Shown piece by piece: positions 12,975 to 60,213 of a stretch of 64,000 nt of DNA. The stretch is from contig DVLL01000005.1 of the NCBI GenBank assembly GCA_018715525.1, positions 1 to 64,000 on the forward strand. Reading direction: 5' to 3'. Made by a program: the position numbers and the translations under genes. The first letter of the stretch is position 1. Every line of letters begins with the position of its first letter. Source of the DNA: Candidatus Faeciplasma pullistercoris (lineage in GTDB: Bacteria; Bacillota; Clostridia; Oscillospirales; Ruminococcaceae). The notes beneath the pieces were generated by a model. The model saw only the letters and a list, made by a program, of their open reading frames with translations, was not told where the DNA came from and ran no database searches.

Positions 12975-14756
12975 ATGGATATGATTAACATAAAGGTAAA
13001 CGGAATGCCGCTTGAAGCTCCCAAGGGCTCTACCGTCCTTGAGGCGTCAAGGCAGGCAGGCGTTGAGATTCCCACCCTCTGCTACCTCAAGGAGATAAAC
13101 GAGATCGGCGCCTGCCGTATGTGCGTTACAGAGGTCGCCGAGATGAGAGGTCCCGCGCTTGGTCCCAAGAGAATAGTCGCTGCTTGTGTCTACCCCGTTT
13201 CCAACGGCATGGAGATATACACTAATTCCCCCAAAGTAACAGCGGCAAGGCGTCAGACGCTTGAGCTGATACTTTCCACCCACGACCGCAAGTGCCTTTC
13301 CTGCGTGAGAAGCGGAAACTGCGAGCTTCAGAAGCTCTGCCGCGACTATAAGGTGGAAAACGAGGGCAGATTCGACGGCGAGCGCGTAAAGTACGAGATA
13401 GACGCCAGCGCTCCGCACATGATAAGAGACAACAACAAGTGCATACTCTGCCGCAGATGCGTTGCAGTGTGTGAAAAGACTCAGGGCATAGGCGTTATAG
13501 GACCCAACGAAAGAGGATTCTCAAGCCACATCGGTTCTCCCTTTGACTTGGGTCTCGGCGACACCTCCTGCGTCTCCTGCGGACAGTGCATTGCTGTATG
13601 CCCTACCGGCGCGCTTGCTGAGAAGGACTTCACCACAGAGGTGTTTGCCGCGCTTGCCGACCCCTCAAAGCACGTAATAGTTCAGACCGCACCTGCGGTA
13701 AGAGCTGCTTTGGGCGAAATGTTTGGCATGCCGATAGGCACCGACGCTGAGGGTAAAATGGTCGCCGCTTTGCGCAGGCTCGGCTTTGACCAGGTGTATG
13801 ACACCAACTTCAGCGCCGATCTCACCATCATGGAGGAGGCAAACGAGCTTATCGAGAGAATCCAAAACGGCGGAAAGCTCCCGCTTATCACCTCCTGCTC
13901 ACCCGGATGGGTCAAGTACTGCGAGCACTACTTCCCCGGACTTGTGGACAACCTTTCAAGCTGCAAGTCTCCCCAGCAGATGTTCGGCGCGATTGCAAAG
14001 AGCTACTATGCCGAGAAGAACGGCATAGACCCCGCTGACATTGTGGTGGTATCCGTAATGCCCTGCACCGCGAAGAAGTTTGAGATAGGACGTCCCGACG
14101 AGGACGCAAACGGCGTTCCGGACGTGGACATATCCATCACCACACGCGAGCTTGGCAGAATGATAGAGCGCGCGGGAATCCAGTTCACTTCGCTTCCCGA
14201 CGAGAAGTTTGACGAGCCTTTGGGAATCTACACCGGCGCGGGCGTTATCTTTGGTGCTACCGGAGGAGTTATGGAGGCAGCTCTCAGAACCGCTGTAGAG
14301 ACACTTACCGGCGAGGAGCTTCCCGACGTCGATTTCGTCGATGTAAGAGGCACCGCGGGAATAAAGGAAAAGAGCTACAATGTAGCCGGCATGGATATAA
14401 AGGTGGCGGTTGCATCAGGACTTGCAAACGCCAAGAAGCTTCTTAAGAGCATAGAAAGCGGCGAGGCGGATTATCAGTTCGTTGAGATAATGGCCTGCCC
14501 CGGAGGCTGCGTAAACGGCGGCGGACAGCCCCAGCAGCCCGGATATGTAAGGAACACCGTGGACATAAGAGCAAAGCGCGCGGCTGTTCTTTACAGCATT
14601 GACAAGAACGCCCCAATAAGAAAGTCTCATGAGAACCCCGCAATCAAGGCGTTGTATGCGGAGTACCTCGGCAAGCCCGGCTCTGAGAAGGCTCATCATT
14701 TGCTGCACACAACATACGTTAAGCGCGGCATAGTTGACGACCCGAGAAAGAAGTAA
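12975..14756 (+). CDS. hndD: Catalytic [FeFe] hydrogenase subunit (HndD/HydA)
   Basis: Reversible H2 production or oxidation at the H-cluster; last gene of the operon. Its 593 residues match the group with full accessory clusters: N-terminal [2Fe-2S] domain (CYLKEINEIGACRMC), His-ligated cluster (HDRKCLSCVRSGNC), two [4Fe-4S] motifs (CILCRRCVAVC, CVSCGQCIAVC), the catalytic domain and a small-subunit-like C-terminus. L2 (MPCTAKKFE) and L3 (EIMACPGGCVNGGGQP) are canonical. L1 reads TSCSPGW instead of TSCCPxW, so one of the two adjacent cysteines is Ser. GGAGG precedes the start. The hydE/F/G maturases are not in this window. Confidence 0.95.
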   Translation: MDMINIKVNGMPLEAPKGSTVLEASRQAGVEIPTLCYLKEINEIGACRMCVTEVAEMRGPALGPKRIVAACVYPVSNGMEIYTNSPKVTAARRQTLELILSTHDRKCLSCVRSGNCELQKLCRDYKVENEGRFDGERVKYEIDASAPHMIRDNNKCILCRRCVAVCEKTQGIGVIGPNERGFSSHIGSPFDLGLGDTSCVSCGQCIAVCPTGALAEKDFTTEVFAALADPSKHVIVQTAPAVRAALGEMFGMPIGTDAEGKMVAALRRLGFDQVYDTNFSADLTIMEEANELIERIQNGGKLPLITSCSPGWVKYCEHYFPGLVDNLSSCKSPQQMFGAIAKSYYAEKNGIDPADIVVVSVMPCTAKKFEIGRPDEDANGVPDVDISITTRELGRMIERAGIQFTSLPDEKFDEPLGIYTGAGVIFGATGGVMEAALRTAVETLTGEELPDVDFVDVRGTAGIKEKSYNVAGMDIKVAVASGLANAKKLLKSIESGEADYQFVEIMACPGGCVNGGGQPQQPGYVRNTVDIRAKRAAVLYSIDKNAPIRKSHENPAIKALYAEYLGKPGSEKAHHLLHTTYVKRGIVDDPRKK

Positions 14757-14786
14757 ACTCAGGCTTCATCTCATATAAAGCACTTA

Positions 14787-14823
14787 ATCCCCCTGCATCC
14801 ATTCGGATGCAGGGGGATTTTTT
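14787..14823 (+). terminator. Terminator of the hydrogenase operon
   Basis: Perfect 14-bp stem (ATCCCCCTGCATCC) around ATTC, followed by TTTTTT. Confidence 0.9.
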
Positions 14824-14826
14824 GCG

Positions 14827-14865
14827 AAAAAAAGCCCCGAAGCAGGTTTAGTCCTGCCTCGGGGC
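14827..14865 (-). terminator. Terminator of the minus-strand gene at 14914
   Basis: GCCCCGA-GCAGG pairs with CCTGC-TCGGGGC. On the minus strand the stem is followed by seven T. Confidence 0.85.
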
Positions 14866-14913
14866 TGATTGGCGCGATTTATTTGGTGAAGCCGTCCTAC
14901 ACACGGCTGAGTC

Positions 14914-15465
14914 CTACAGCTCCGGCTCAAGTGTCACGGTGTTGTCTGCAAAGCCGTTCAGGAGCTTCAGACCTCTTCCTCTGAGGTCGTATGTAAGCTC
15001 CAAGGAAGCCGAGGCTATTTCCACGCCGGTCAGAAGAAAAGCGTCAAGGGTTACGCTATTGCCGCTCGCGTCCCAGCTCATTATCATGCTCCCGCCTTCA
15101 TAGCTCACCGAAGGGGGACTGCCATACCCTCCGGGAACGGAGCAGGCTGCGTATTCCGACACCGGCTCGCCGGGGATAGTAAGTCTCGCGCGGATGTTTC
15201 TTATATCATAGCTTCCGCTCTCCTGCCCGCTTATGACAACGCTGAGGTGATAAACCCCGTCGGCAAGTGGCTTGAGCATATAGGACACGCCAAGCTCGGG
15301 GTCTGCGCCGCTTTTCATGTGGTTCACGACCTCATACACATCAGGCGATATTTTCTCAGGCTCGACAGACTCAAGCGCATCCACGTTTAAAGCTGCCACA
15401 GCAACCGCAATGACTATCACCACGACTATTATTATCTTTGCTGTTTTTTTGCCTTTCATAGCCAT
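14914..15465 (-). CDS. Signal-anchored extracytoplasmic protein, unknown function
   Basis: 183 residues, not recognised. Residues about 8-26 are a strong hydrophobic anchor (IIIVVVIVIAVAVAALNV) after a Lys-rich start. The rest is predicted outside the membrane and rich in beta-type sequence (DGVYHLSVVISG, SASLELTYDL), which could be an immunoglobulin-like or carbohydrate-binding fold. AAGGAAGG precedes the ATG at 15465. It is monocistronic, between the hydrogenase and GH97 regions. Confidence 0.6.
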   Translation of the reverse strand: MAMKGKKTAKIIIVVVIVIAVAVAALNVDALESVEPEKISPDVYEVVNHMKSGADPELGVSYMLKPLADGVYHLSVVISGQESGSYDIRNIRARLTIPGEPVSEYAACSVPGGYGSPPSVSYEGGSMIMSWDASGNSVTLDAFLLTGVEIASASLELTYDLRGRGLKLLNGFADNTVTLEPEL

Positions 15466-20130: not shown

Positions 20131-20286
20131 AAAGCAAAACTCGCTTATAAATACATTTTATCACTTTAATACGCATAATGCAACACCTGCGCAAGAATAA
20201 TTTGATTTTCGGGGGGATATTCGTCGTAACCGACTTTAAACCGGCATGGAAATTGCCTCCGGCGGCTCGCCGGCGCCGAACCCAAC
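20131..20286. other. Intergenic stretch before the tRNA-Arg repeats
   Basis: No gene seen. A hairpin CCGGCG-GCT-CGCCGG lies near 20258-20272, at the edge of the repeat block. Confidence 0.4.
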
Positions 20287-20558
20287 CTGCGGCGCGGGCA
20301 GGCAGTGCGTTCCCACGCAAACTGCGGCGCGATATTGGGTGCAGCGTCACGCTGCCGTCACGCTGGAAAAATTTTTGACGCCGGACTCAGCTATCTGCGT
20401 GGGCAGGTAGTGCATTTCTGCACCAACTGCGGCGCGATATTGGGTCCAGCGTCATCGCTGGTTCACAAAAGCTAAAGAGCTTTCAAGCCCATCGTCAGGG
20501 CGCCAAGGCAAAAAGCAACGCCGAACCCGGGTAATATCGGGTCCAGCGTCATCGCTGG
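20287..20558 (-). repeat. Structured direct repeats abutting tRNA-Arg
   Basis: Two related units (20287-20366 and about 20394-20461) and a partial third (about 20533-20558) share CTGCGGCGCGATATTGGGT and a following hairpin. Unit 1 has GCAGCG-TCA-CGCTGC; units 2 and 3 have CCAGCG-TCAT-CGCTGG. The upstream hairpins also differ in a paired way: TGCGT/ACGCA in unit 1, GTGCA/TGCAC in unit 2. The third copy runs into the CCA end of the tRNA gene. Strand is given as that of the tRNA. Confidence 0.65.
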
Positions 20559-20630
20559 TCTGTCCGACAGGAATTGAACCTGCGCACATACGGTCGGAGC
20601 GTATTGCTCTATCCACTGAGCTACGGACAG
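20556..20630 (-). tRNA. tRNA-Arg (anticodon CCG)
   Basis: Acceptor CTGTCCG pairs perfectly with CGGACAG. The anticodon arm ATACG-CTCCGAC-CGTAT gives CCG. T-loop GGTTCAATTCC, with encoded CCA. It lies 53 nt downstream of metG on the same strand and may be cotranscribed. An imperfect hairpin (GGGCGG/CCGCCC) lies between them with only a short T-run. Confidence 0.95.
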
Positions 20631-48367: not shown

Positions 48368-48406
48368 CCCGGCTTTTCTGAAAAGGAAGCCGGGCTTTTT
48401 GTTTTT
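48368..48406 (+). terminator. Terminator of the tRNA-Met/Glu unit
   Basis: CCCGGCTT/AAGCCGGG stem followed by CTTTTTGTTTTT. Confidence 0.85.
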
Positions 48407-48437
48407 AGATCATCTTACCCGAAATGGCTTTGAGACT

Positions 48438-48781
48438 GGGATGCCGCGAAGCCCCGACGCATGGCGGCGGGGCCGGAAGCGAGCCGAGGGCGCAGGGCAG
48501 CGGCTTTTAACTTCACAGCCTTATCCCGGCAGAAAATTGCAGCATGTGGCTTAGCTCTTTTCCGCCCTGCCCTGCGCTCGCCCTCGGCTCGCTATAGCTG
48601 CCCGGACAGCAGCAGCCATTGGCTGCTGCGCAAGCCCGCGCCTTCCGGGGCGCTCCCCTGATAAACGCCCCGCATTGCCCGACTCGCACAAAAGTCAAGT
48701 TAAGAGCGGAAGCTAACGGCGCGGGCTCGCCGCGGCTGCGTGAACGCAGCCGCATGCTGTCCGGGCGGCGCGCGGCATCCC
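48438..48781 (+). repeat. Structured inverted-repeat element A (four-way junction)
   Basis: Closing helix P1: GGGATGCCGCG (48438-48448) with CGCGGCATCCC (48771-48781). P2: GCCCCG/CGGGGC (48451-48473). P3: 48479-48500 with 48567-48592, 22 bp with a 4-nt bulge (GCGAGCCGAGGG and CGCAGGGCAG on the 5' side). P4: GCCCGGACAGCA (48600-48611) with TGCTGTCCGGGC (48755-48766). P4 encloses a 7-9 bp hairpin at about 48610-48628, a 9-bp stem (48634-48642/48718-48726) and hairpin GCGGCTGCG-TGAA-CGCAGCCGC (48732-48753). No ORF of note inside. Confidence 0.75.
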
Positions 48782-48907
48782 CTGTGAAGAGCGAGTAAGC
48801 TATCATCGTGCCACATAAAAGCGCGGCGGGGAAAATCATTTAGTGTTCCCTGTCTCATGCTTTCTTTGAGGCTTGCCGCAAAATAAATTGCTTTCAAGCT
48901 TAAAAAC

Positions 48908-48937
48908 AAGAGGCACCCACATTGCGAATGCCTCTTT
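48908..48937 (-). terminator. Terminator of the polysaccharide deacetylase gene
   Basis: On the minus strand AGAGGCA.../...TGCCTCT followed by TGTTTTT. Confidence 0.75.
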
Positions 48938-49006: not shown

Positions 49007-49849
49007 TCAAAATTTGACCGTCTCGCCGGGCTTTACCGAGAACAGCTTTTCACCGCTCCAGCTTCGCTCGCACAGCCATATCTCCTTGGCGGTAGGATTG
49101 TATACCATCCTTGACTGCGGAGAGGTTGAGTACTCCAGCGCCTTGTAGGCAAGATGATACTCGCAGATGTCTATGTTTGCGGCGAACCATATCTTGTCGC
49201 TATGGGACGACATGAACTTAAGGATTCCCTCGACGACATCCCAGTTTCCGTCCCTGCGGAACTCGGCTGTATGACCCCAAAGATAGAACATTCTCGGCTC
49301 GTCCGAGTCCTCAGCCAAGAATTTCTTCGCCAGCTCCATTATGCCGCCGTGATTGTGGTGGCAGGTAGCCTTGAGCCTCAGCCAGTCCTCAGGCATGGCG
49401 AAGTCCTCCCTCGTCTCGACTGTCCGGCAGTATTTTATACCGTTTCTCTTCAAAGCCTCTACGCTCGCGTCGTTATAGCTTCCGTATGGATATGCAGCTC
49501 CTCTGACTACCCTGCCGTACTGGAGCTCGAGGCTTGCCCTGTCAGCCGCTATCTCGTAGTTGAGCTCCGCCTCGGTGAGCTGAGTGAAGTTTCTGTGCTC
49601 AAGACCGTGGACAGCTATCTCAACGCCGTGGGTGATATAGCTCTTTTCCGCCTCCGACCTTGTGAGCCTCGGCCAGCCTCCGTCCGGCTCTGTTCCCTCA
49701 TCGCGGTATATTCCCGAGCTGACGTTAAATGTGCCCTTGACGCCGTACTCGTCCATAAGCTCCATCAGCCTCATGTCGTCATAGTTGGCATCGTCATAGC
49801 TGAGGGTAAACGCCTTTCTCAGACCTCCCGGAAATCTCATTTTCAACAT
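49007..49849 (-). CDS. Polysaccharide deacetylase family protein
   Basis: 280 residues; NodB-type fold. Near the N-terminus LSYDDANYDD supplies the metal-binding Asp pair in place of the more usual TFDDG, followed by GVEIAVHGLEHRNF with the His-x3-His-type ligand set. No signal peptide is visible, so it may be cytoplasmic, unlike peptidoglycan deacetylases; the substrate is unknown. An ideal AAGGAGG site precedes the ATG. Single gene. Confidence 0.85.
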   Translation of the reverse strand: MLKMRFPGGLRKAFTLSYDDANYDDMRLMELMDEYGVKGTFNVSSGIYRDEGTEPDGGWPRLTRSEAEKSYITHGVEIAVHGLEHRNFTQLTEAELNYEIAADRASLELQYGRVVRGAAYPYGSYNDASVEALKRNGIKYCRTVETREDFAMPEDWLRLKATCHHNHGGIMELAKKFLAEDSDEPRMFYLWGHTAEFRRDGNWDVVEGILKFMSSHSDKIWFAANIDICEYHLAYKALEYSTSPQSRMVYNPTAKEIWLCERSWSGEKLFSVKPGETVKF

Positions 49850-49966
49850 GCTATCTACCTCCTTGATATTGACAATACTTTTTATTCACTATAAACTATT
49901 AGCTAAAACCAGTATACAGCCATGCGCTGCATTTTTCAATAGCCTTGCCTCACAGGAGGAAATTTA

Positions 49967-50740
49967 ATGACGCTGAACCACATAACAGACACTCACTCCC
50001 ACTATGACGACCCGCGCTTTGACGGAATAAGAGACGAGCTTATCTCCTCCCTTTTTTCACGCGGCATCTCGGCGATAATCCACGCCGCCGACACCGTCAA
50101 GTCGTCAGAATACGGCGTTGCCGCCGCGCAGAAATACCCGCGTTACTTCACCGCCGTCGGCATTCACCCAGAGCACGCGAACGGCGTGACAGAATCAGAG
50201 CTTGAAAGAATATCAGAGCTTGCCAAAAGCCCAAAGGTGGTGGCAATAGGAGAAATAGGGCTTGACTACCATTACGAGGGCTATGACAGCGAGGCGCAGA
50301 AGCGGCTCTTTGAGTATCAAATAAGGCTTGCGCAAAGCCTTGAGCTGCCCATAATCGTCCACTCAAGGGACGCAGCCGGGGACTGCATGGATATCCTCAG
50401 AAGATTTGCCCCCGTTTCAGGAGTGATGCACTGCTTTTCCGGCTCTGTCGAGACAGCAAGAGAGGTTCTCTCGCTCGGAATGCACATAAGCTTTACCGGA
50501 GTCATCACCTTCAAAAACTCAAAAAAGGCCGTCCAAGTCCTTGAGTCCATGCCGCTCGACAGGCTTTTACTTGAGACCGACTGCCCCTACATGGCTCCCG
50601 AGCCCTTTCGTGGAAAAACCTGCGACAGCTCGATGATAGAATACATCGCGAAAAAGGAAGCAAAGCTTCTCGGCATAAGCCTCGACAAGCTGCTTCTTGC
50701 CACCGAGGAAAACGCGAGGCGGCTCTTTAAGCTCTGGTAA
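49967..50740 (+). CDS. tatD: TatD family metal-dependent hydrolase
   Basis: 257 residues, TIM-barrel DNase family. Metal motifs: DTHSHYDD at the start, AIGEIGLDYHY, IVHSRDA, HCFSG, LETDCPYMAPEP. Relatives act as 3'-5' exonucleases or D-aminoacyl-tRNA deacylases. AGGAGG precedes the start; monocistronic with its own terminator. Confidence 0.95.
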   Translation: MTLNHITDTHSHYDDPRFDGIRDELISSLFSRGISAIIHAADTVKSSEYGVAAAQKYPRYFTAVGIHPEHANGVTESELERISELAKSPKVVAIGEIGLDYHYEGYDSEAQKRLFEYQIRLAQSLELPIIVHSRDAAGDCMDILRRFAPVSGVMHCFSGSVETAREVLSLGMHISFTGVITFKNSKKAVQVLESMPLDRLLLETDCPYMAPEPFRGKTCDSSMIEYIAKKEAKLLGISLDKLLLATEENARRLFKLW

Positions 50741-50832: not shown

Positions 50833-51091
50833 GGGGATGCCGCGGCGCCGCCCTAAGGCGGCGTGTGGCAGCCCGCGGGAGCCGGGCGCTGTCTCTTTGG
50901 TTTGGTAACAAGCCCGACGGCTATCTCCGGCAAAGATATGCCTTGACCCTGTTACCCGCTCCCGCGGGTTGCCTTGGCTGTCCGGTCGGCTTTCGACATT
51001 CACAGGCAAGCCGCCCTTGATGTTCTCCGACACGCCACTATCTTATGCTTCCGGCTCGGTTTTTGCCGACCGGGCAGCCCGCGGCATCCCC
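50833..51091 (+). repeat. Structured inverted-repeat element B (four-way junction)
   Basis: P1: GGGGATGCCGCGG (50833-50845) with CCGCGGCATCCCC (51079-51091). P2: CGCCGCC-CTAA-GGCGGCG (50846-50863). P3: CCCGCGGGAGC (50872-50882) with GCTCCCGCGGG (50958-50968), enclosing GGTAACA/TGTTACC (50904-50910/50950-50956). P4: CCGGTCGGC (50982-50990) with GCCGACCGG (51065-51073). Its last 22 nt match those of element A with two differences. Confidence 0.75.
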
Positions 51092-53756: not shown

Positions 53757-54025
53757 GGCATGTCGCCCCGCCGGCGGCTCGGCGCTGGCTTTTTTGGCAC
53801 CCACTCTCTTTGCGCCGCGCAGCCGCCCGGAACGCAATGCGCGCGTAGCAAGGAGCCGGGCCGCCGGCGAAATACGCCCTTCCTTTTTTTCGCGCGGAGA
53901 TAAATTTTCTCCGTCAATCCGGCTGAGCTGCCGAATATTCACTGCCCACAACGCCGCGTCTGTGGCTTTGACTCCGCGCGAAAAAAGGAAGGCGTCGGAC
54001 GCCTTAGGGCGTCAGGCGACATGCC
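53757..54025 (-). repeat. Structured inverted-repeat element C (four-way junction, minus orientation)
   Basis: P1: GGCATGTCGCC (53757-53767) with GGCGACATGCC (54015-54025). Read on the minus strand, P2 is the hairpin at 53998-54013 (GACGCC-TTAG-GGCGTC). P3 pairs 53972-53995 with 53874-53899, about 23 bp including six A-T pairs. P4 pairs 53855-53869 with 53769-53783, 15 bp with one G-T. Order and spacing equal those of A and B, but the sequence differs. The element lies between the divergent serC and glyS promoters. Confidence 0.7.
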
Positions 54026-59853: not shown

Positions 59854-59870
59854 GTTTTATGTCTATCCAT

Positions 59871-59908
59871 GCCGCCGTATGCGGGGCTTACGCCCCGCAT
59901 ACGGCGGC
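59871..59908. repeat. Perfect 17-bp hairpin
   Basis: GCCGCCGTATGCGGGGC, TTAC, then the exact complement GCCCCGCATACGGCGGC. No T-run on either strand, so it is not a usual terminator. It lies between element D and the xylanase operator. Confidence 0.8.
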
Positions 59909-59952
59909 AGACTGTCACTTATTTCACGAATTTAGGCTTTGTGCGCTCCCCA

Positions 59953-60213
59953 CGGACGCCGCCATGCTGCCCGAAGGGCAGCCCCGACGGCTTTTCCCCG
60001 GCGGTCGCCGACTTTAGCCATGCGTCGCCTTGAGAAAAGCTTTTAAAACGGGCAGGTACGGTCATTTCAGCGTTCAGACCGGCGACCGCATCCGGAAAAG
60101 CCGTTATCGCCGCGCCTTGGCGGCAGCTTCGCCCCTGACGATCCTTGAAGCCGGGGCTATGCTGCCGGCCTTGCCGTCGTAAGCAAAGCCACGGCGCGGC
60201 GGAGCGGCGTCCG
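59953..60213 (+). repeat. Structured inverted-repeat element D (four-way junction)
   Basis: P1: CGGACGCCGC (59953-59962) with GCGGCGTCCG (60204-60213). P2: GCTGCCC-GAA-GGGCAGC (59966-59982). P3: ACGGCTTTTCC (59987-59997) with GGAAAAGCCGT (60094-60104), continued by GCGGTCGCCG (60001-60010) with CGGCGACCGC (60080-60089). P4: CGGCAGC (60121-60127) with GCTGCCG (60161-60167), enclosing GCCCC/GGGGC. An outer GCGCTC/GAGCGC pair (59943-59948/60223-60228) may extend it. Confidence 0.7.

Follow-up and report, generated by a model that had tools for sequence, protein, structure and literature searches.

Four intergenic elements, here called A–D, lie in the 64,000-nucleotide stretch of the Candidatus Faeciplasma pullistercoris genome that was analysed (the window), and each can be folded into a large branched structure. 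The first of them, A, follows tRNA-Met and tRNA-Glu and precedes a convergent polysaccharide-deacetylase-like gene. What are these elements, and is it as RNA or as DNA that their structure matters? Our analysis indicates that A–D are probably non-autonomous, non-coding, MITE- or REP-like dispersed DNA elements able to fold. This reading draws directly on the fold, on the layout common to the four, on sister families in which pairing is nearly strictly Watson-Crick, on covariation in one of these families (E), and on the presence or absence of D, and probably of C, among relatives. With both sister families, E and the "clovers", A–D share architecture, genus, and intergenic position; in sequence they are unrelated to them.

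The folds of elements A–D

A sequence-only reading of the window had drawn A as a compact four-way junction with an 11-bp perfect closing helix (P1), a short hairpin P2, and a branched arm P4. Refolding bears this out; the arm P3, earlier put at 22 bp, was found as 23 bp (14 + 9, with one 4-nt bulge). The features concerned are as follows, G012 being a close relative.

48438–48781, plus strand: element A, whole; 344 nt, GC 0.68, folded with RNA and with DNA energies
48438–48448, plus strand: 5′ arm of P1 of A, pairing with 48771–48781 (11 bp, perfect)
48771–48781, plus strand: 3′ arm of P1 of A, partner of 48438–48448
48451–48473, plus strand: hairpin P2 of A, 48451–48456 with 48468–48473, plus an inner CGC/GCG
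48478–48593, plus strand: arm P3 of A, 14 + 9 bp, 48478–48500 with 48567–48593, one 4-nt bulge
48597–48769, plus strand: branched arm P4 of A, 12-bp stem 48597–48608/48758–48769, sub-hairpins of 9, 10, 7, and 9 bp
48368–48394, plus strand: terminator-like hairpin after tRNA-Met/tRNA-Glu, in the flank outside A and pointing into it
48908–48936, minus strand: terminator-like hairpin of the polysaccharide-deacetylase-like gene, in the other flank and pointing into A from that side
50833–51091, plus strand: element B, 259 nt, homologous to A, with an orthologue in G012
53757–54025, minus strand: element C, 269 nt, helix order as in A
59953–60213, plus strand: element D, 261 nt, helix order as in A, present in G012

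The junction linkers of A measure 2, 4, 3, and 1 nt. Its folding energy stands far from that of dinucleotide shuffles, with a z score of −8.8 for 48420–48800, −9.6 for the exact element under RNA energies, and −9.1 under DNA energies, where the four helices are unchanged; in each case none of 100 shuffles equalled it. With z at about −9 throughout, the earlier judgement that pairing of this extent exceeds chance holds, and the structure of A is confirmed as real and strongly folding. Elements B (z −10.8), C (−6.8), and D (−6.4) likewise outdo all of their 100 shuffles, and refolding of each recovers the helix order of A that had been claimed for them, P1-P2-P3-P4, on the minus strand in the case of C. 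Across the four, P1 is perfect and 10–13 bp long. Only short, overlapping open reading frames cover A, and indels between the copies in this genome (G000) and in G012 would break reading frames; on these grounds A–D qualify as non-coding.

Wide dispersal within this genome, by contrast with the shared layout, finds no support. A descriptor requiring at least 10 bp in P1, 6 in P2, 12 in P3, and 14 in P4, with thresholds fitted post hoc after A–D had been seen, matched only A–D on both strands of 864 kb (the window and 40 further stretches with small overlaps, about half of the 1.71 Mb genome), and none of 10 dinucleotide shuffles of those 864 kb gave a match; in the half sampled, all four copies thus lie within 12 kb. 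Looser settings fail to tell real from shuffled sequence: one gave 20 matches versus 8 and 10 in shuffles, another 15 versus 16, and in 344 kb of relatives 28 were found versus 18 and 22, with one strong-looking match in one of the two shuffles. A 300-nt folding scan of the window placed B first, yet ranked a plain terminator pair at 14601–15000 alongside it.

Sequence comparison separates what layout unites. A and B are homologous, and C and D are joined to them by layout alone, since the A–B score rises above shuffles and the pairs involving C or D mostly do not. The A–B alignment spans about 200 nt, P1 being exactly alike in the two, and scores 56 against a shuffle mean of 29.5 (sd 5.6, maximum 50, 60 shuffles), a value to which shared palindromic composition may contribute; A scores 43 against the reverse complement of B. 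The A–C score is marginal (43 versus a maximum of 40 in 60 shuffles) and its match falls outside P1, and the A–D, B–C, B–D, and C–D pairs do not exceed their shuffles. The genome contains exactly five copies of the 10-mer GGATGCCGCG, four of them the P1 arms of A and B and one (L003) in what looks like coding sequence. With one mismatch allowed the pattern gives 60 + 61 matches versus 76 + 63 for a reversed control, which is mostly noise.

Several other folded or repetitive places were observed. Two strong intergenic hairpins at window 14780–14870, one with a T-run, are read as plain terminators. A perfect hairpin of 18 bp, its loop 4 nt long, stands beside D (window 59870–59909) and is altered in the G012 copy. 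Beside tRNA-Arg, window 20274–20559 holds small palindromes and imperfect GC-rich direct repeats, some of 76 nt (79% alike) and others of 26 nt in three copies. A folding hotspot on contig C8 of the same genome (L050, 1–683) is due to a CRISPR-like array, in which the repeat ATTTCAATCCACGCTCCCCGCAGGGGGAGCGAC recurs every ~66–69 nt between differing spacers.

Conservation and presence or absence among relatives

A DNA search with A across 60 genomes, its own and 59 others, found the element in its own genome and in G012 only. B and D also have G012 counterparts, and the matching G012 contig does not include the C site. In those parts of A, B, and D for which G012 has sequence, with gaps scored as differences, 13 of 372 positions in helices of at least 6 bp differ between G000 and G012 versus 41 of 387 elsewhere (Fisher p 1.2e-4). 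Of the 11 pairs that changed, six still pair and five are broken, and two-sided compensation was not found against this one close relative; A–D show stem conservation without compensatory proof. The paired substitutions that the sequence-only reading had expected of a structured family are consequently seen in sister family E and not in A–D themselves.

The presence of the elements varies further afield. Between matched flanks at the D site, the window has 483–488 bases, versus 80 in G023, 58 in G008 (UBA1409), and 51 in G021 (UBA1828); D is thus in G012 and missing from the same spacer in these three genomes. Element C is probably also missing from the same spacer in a relative: its site holds 139 bases in G021, AT-rich and weakly folded, versus 632 in the window, and 350 in G008 versus 673 in the window. 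The relatives' spacers are too diverged at these sites to reveal exact insertion points or target-site duplications, and gain here and loss in the relatives both fit these data.

Two sister families, E and the clovers

In UBA1409, the spacers adjoining serA and tRNA-Glu, that is, the places of B and A, carry two elements of a different sequence, with P1 around GCAAAGTGAG, a GTCAGC hairpin as P2, a long P3 built on TGATTGCC, and a hairpin as P4. A DNA search with this family, E, covered the 31 genomes of the genus; it gave 28 matches in UBA1409, fragments and both-strand matches included, a single short and weak match in G026, another in G011, and nothing in the other 28. Family E amounts to about two dozen copies in UBA1409 that have the layout of A–D and an unrelated sequence. 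By simple ORF calls, none of 22 copies (the truncated L208 counted) lies inside an ORF of at least 120 aa.

The pairing of E is supported by covariation. From 23 candidates, an alignment of 21 copies (A1) was made, leaving out a 258-nt alternative in L199 and L208; 95% of its 840 cells are paired, and 14 of its 40 pairs have changed on both sides. Covariation is 0.166, versus 0.079 when shuffled (none of 500 as high) and at most 0.050 when slid.

A covariance model built from E (R1) gave 58 matches on both strands of UBA1409, about 26 of them full-length places by a count from the list. Across the genus, it matched at E ≤0.1 in 16 of the 31 genomes, many of the matches being weak, and the best outside UBA1409 reached E 2e-13 and 3e-13 in G026 and G030. 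In the genome of A–D (867,713 bases), seven matches were returned at E up to 10; the best, at E 0.03, is one short hairpin, and the other six range from E 1.9 to 6.9. None falls on A–D, so that common descent of A–D with E is without support. A search of ten relatives matched further loci, and 71 of 80 named loci gave four matches at E ≤1, the best (1e-9) in a Ruminococcus MAG from roe deer. R1 matches in other Clostridia (L176 8533–8682, L151 4654–4819, and L137 12928–13020) have in common a TGTC..GAC hairpin preceded by GGGAG or GGGGAG and followed by GAGGG, which suggests that E-like elements may extend beyond this genus. The flanks of E copies, as at about 1660–1860 of L199, often carry short units, each made of AGTGAA and a small hairpin with a stem that differs per unit.

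The second family is that of the clovers. When a 181-bp piece of G003 was searched as DNA, 13 of the 31 genomes gave matches, at most 36 in any one genome with both strands counted. Clovers were delimited by P1 arms 70–120 nt apart that matched GGGCGAAGCC with no more than two mismatches. Of the 30 loci fetched, which were those ranked highest by sequence search, 27 yielded the sample of 30 elements; duplicates were merged, and L218, L225, and L226 (the same place as L214) gave no new element. Each of the 30 forms a junction that has three arms, no more and no fewer. The mean arm length is 9.3 bp, 8 of 90 arms have an internal defect, and at 81 of 120 places the linker length is 0 nt. With P1 included, 1168 pairs are Watson-Crick versus 7 G-U. 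Arm sequences are distinct in 88 of 90 cases, yet arms of different loci share an 8-mer in 379 of 3879 pairs versus 150–208 when shuffled, about a twofold excess, so that they are not wholly independent.

Triloops make up 66 of the 90 clover loops, 29 of them GNA and 29 TNC. As TNC is a GNA loop seen on the opposite strand, the equal counts imply that both strands qualify for stable mini-hairpins. GNA loops with G-C pairs are described as forming extraordinarily stable DNA mini-hairpins such as d(GCGAAGC), in the available part of the source as something that short DNA does in vitro and not as a genomic element (PMC4686876); that loop type is found in many clover arms and in the clover P1 arm GGGCGAAGCCC, and among the four P2 hairpins of A–D a C-GAA-G loop is found in D only. 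A strict perfect-arm junction finder returned two clovers only and missed A–D, whereas a looser one recovered A, C, and D at the price of noise (43 matches versus 8 and 11 in shuffles). Three clovers stand within ~630 bp at 906–1531 of L221 (G017).

Transcript, gene-end signal, or dispersed DNA

The sequence-only reading had left the function of these elements open among noncoding RNA, mobile element, nucleoid element, and termination element. Rfam at gathering scores returned three tRNA matches only and nothing for A–D in the window, and only two tRNAs and a tmRNA in 20 sister-family loci. A consensus scan covering one promoter type found no promoter-like site in 48395–48907, between the two inward-pointing terminators. 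With these results the list can be narrowed: a termination role and a discrete transcript for A are disfavoured because of the inward terminators and the lack of a promoter-like site, and A departs from an intrinsic terminator in that each neighbour has its own terminator-like hairpin outside it.

That A–D encode a structured noncoding RNA of about 340 nt, transcribed from the element and with its junction acting at the RNA level, is in our estimate unlikely. The very stable fold of A, the covariation in E, and the stems conserved against G012 would all suit such an RNA, as would a sign contrary to the DNA reading in the core stems of E (33 pairs, seven outer or frayed pairs having been dropped after the pair table was viewed), where 6 G-U against 0 A-C in 693 cells lean toward a one-strand, RNA-like bias (p 0.03). 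An RNA is, however, expected to prefer one strand and to pass through G-U, and this disfavours it here: G-U is scarce in E and in the clovers, and GNA and TNC triloops are equally common in the latter. The 21 aligned E copies divide 8 versus 13 in strand preference (p 0.10, not significant), and A–D show no consistent preference, RNA energies favouring the minus strand of A by 15 kcal/mol, the plus strand of B by 8, the minus strand of D by 4, and neither strand of C, while DNA energies of the two strands of A–D lie within 3 kcal/mol. The silence of Rfam and of the promoter scan also counts against it. Scarce G-U, balanced GNA and TNC, and strand neutrality are what DNA hairpins or cruciforms would be expected to show; together with the inward terminators around A, they favour structure at the level of DNA. 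A dispersed DNA element is favoured, furthermore, since D, and probably C, varies in presence among relatives and the sister families are dispersed.

A role at gene ends, as a bidirectional terminator, an mRNA 3′ stabiliser, or a transcription insulator between convergent genes, strikes us as very unlikely. A and B do stand between convergent genes (tatD and serA in the case of B), and by crude ORF calls, taken without a genome-wide baseline, the E copies are 9 convergent, 13 tandem, and 0 divergent (n=22); such promoter avoidance is, however, equally expected of tolerated insertion. C lies between the divergent serC and glyS, and A is already flanked on each side by a terminator-like hairpin and has no T-run after P1. 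D lies between serS and an esterase/xylanase-like gene (sub-cutoff similarity to xylanase/feruloyl esterase).

Among known systems, bacterial MITEs and REP/REPIN elements appear to be the nearest kinds, and A–D seem to fit neither definition fully. With MITEs such as RUP, NEMIS, Bcr1, ERIC, and YPAL, A–D share non-coding, intergenic character, inverted ends, and strong secondary structure. Bacterial MITEs are given as 70–300 bp long with terminal inverted repeats of 15–30 bp (PMC3733652, as far as available); B (259), C (269), and D (261) are of that size and A (344) is outside it, and the perfect 10–13 bp P1 falls short of such repeats. Unlike MITEs, A–D form a four-way junction with three separate arms, a layout shared where sequence is not; DNA searches with A found no parent insertion sequence, and the spacers are too diverged to display target-site duplications. 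It is a distinctly unlikely, if related, proposition that A–D are relics of a single family of insertion sequences or MITEs, ordinary in kind, that lost its transposase, the junction being incidental to terminal and subterminal inverted repeats, a view that overlaps the preferred one in treating them as mobile DNA. The inverted terminal arms, the lack of a conserved reading frame, and presence or absence between relatives agree with a relic. The shortness of P1 relative to the MITE repeats of that source does not, and three arms in 30 of 30 clovers and the covariation in E, if these are of the same kind as A–D, would go unexplained by a chance relic.

REP, BIME, and REPIN elements resemble A–D in being palindromic, intergenic, dispersed, and devoid of coding capacity. 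They differ in size and in the junction, A–D and the sister elements being junctions of about 80–344 bp and REPs palindromes of 20–40 bp with GTAG or CGTC tags, as given in PMC3733652. RAYT/IS200-605 enzymes are described as reading DNA hairpins as structures (PMC6006769, in the part available). The corresponding domain, Y1_Tnp (PF01797), is present in 8 of the 31 genus genomes and absent from G000, G008, and G012, which sets A–D apart from RAYT-linked REPs and lowers the standing of RAYT mobilisation for A–D. Transposase-carrying or longer elements with the same ends were not found when A and E were used for DNA searches. Stem-loop sequence families of bacterial genomes (PMC2267715) are likewise repeated intergenic sequences able to fold; the words "Ruminococcus", "multi-branched", and "compensatory" are absent from the main text of that paper, so far as available, and its table has two Clostridium species. 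Among open-access matches listed by title and the start of the abstract, none describes elements like these.

On the preferred reading as dispersed DNA, an element would owe its identity to its shape, a perfect closing stem P1 with three self-complementary arms, and the four-way junction would form in a single strand or, in supercoiled DNA, in both. Copies may spread as folded DNA (single-stranded, on the lagging-strand template, or as an extruded cruciform), moved by an enzyme presumably made elsewhere than by the element; they would settle in intergenic spacers where insertion harms little and would be gained and lost between species. Arm sequences could drift freely if one half of a palindromic arm serves as the template for the other, a hypothesis designed to fit the clovers. 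Tentatively, and with considerable doubt, A–D might be the large-armed lineage of a class of selfish DNA that is defined by structure and found in gut Ruminococcus, made of a closing stem and three palindromic arms and recognised by shape alone, in which half-arms are copied from each other (templated palindrome repair) and unrelated-looking copies keep near-perfect Watson-Crick arms.

The surprise of the analysis is that clover arms change and yet stay palindromic. Repeats are normally found by sequence, whereas the letters of these arms change almost freely as the three-armed fold stays in 30 of 30; sequence searches would thus miss much of the class, and Rfam is without an entry for it. If the DNA reading is true, common gut bacteria would offer a natural setting in which to test cruciform extrusion, template-switch mutagenesis, and shape-directed transposition, and would supply a warning that covariation alone is no proof of RNA.

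A separate observation concerns the deacetylase-tatD block between A and B (window 49007–50740). Compared at loci L095/L106, L085, L088, L093, L097, and L098, this block is inverted in UBA1409, G010, G011, G005, and G003 relative to the window, G012, and G023. Palindromes may serve as marks of recombination points, and UBA1409 has E elements at the same two ends of the inverted block.
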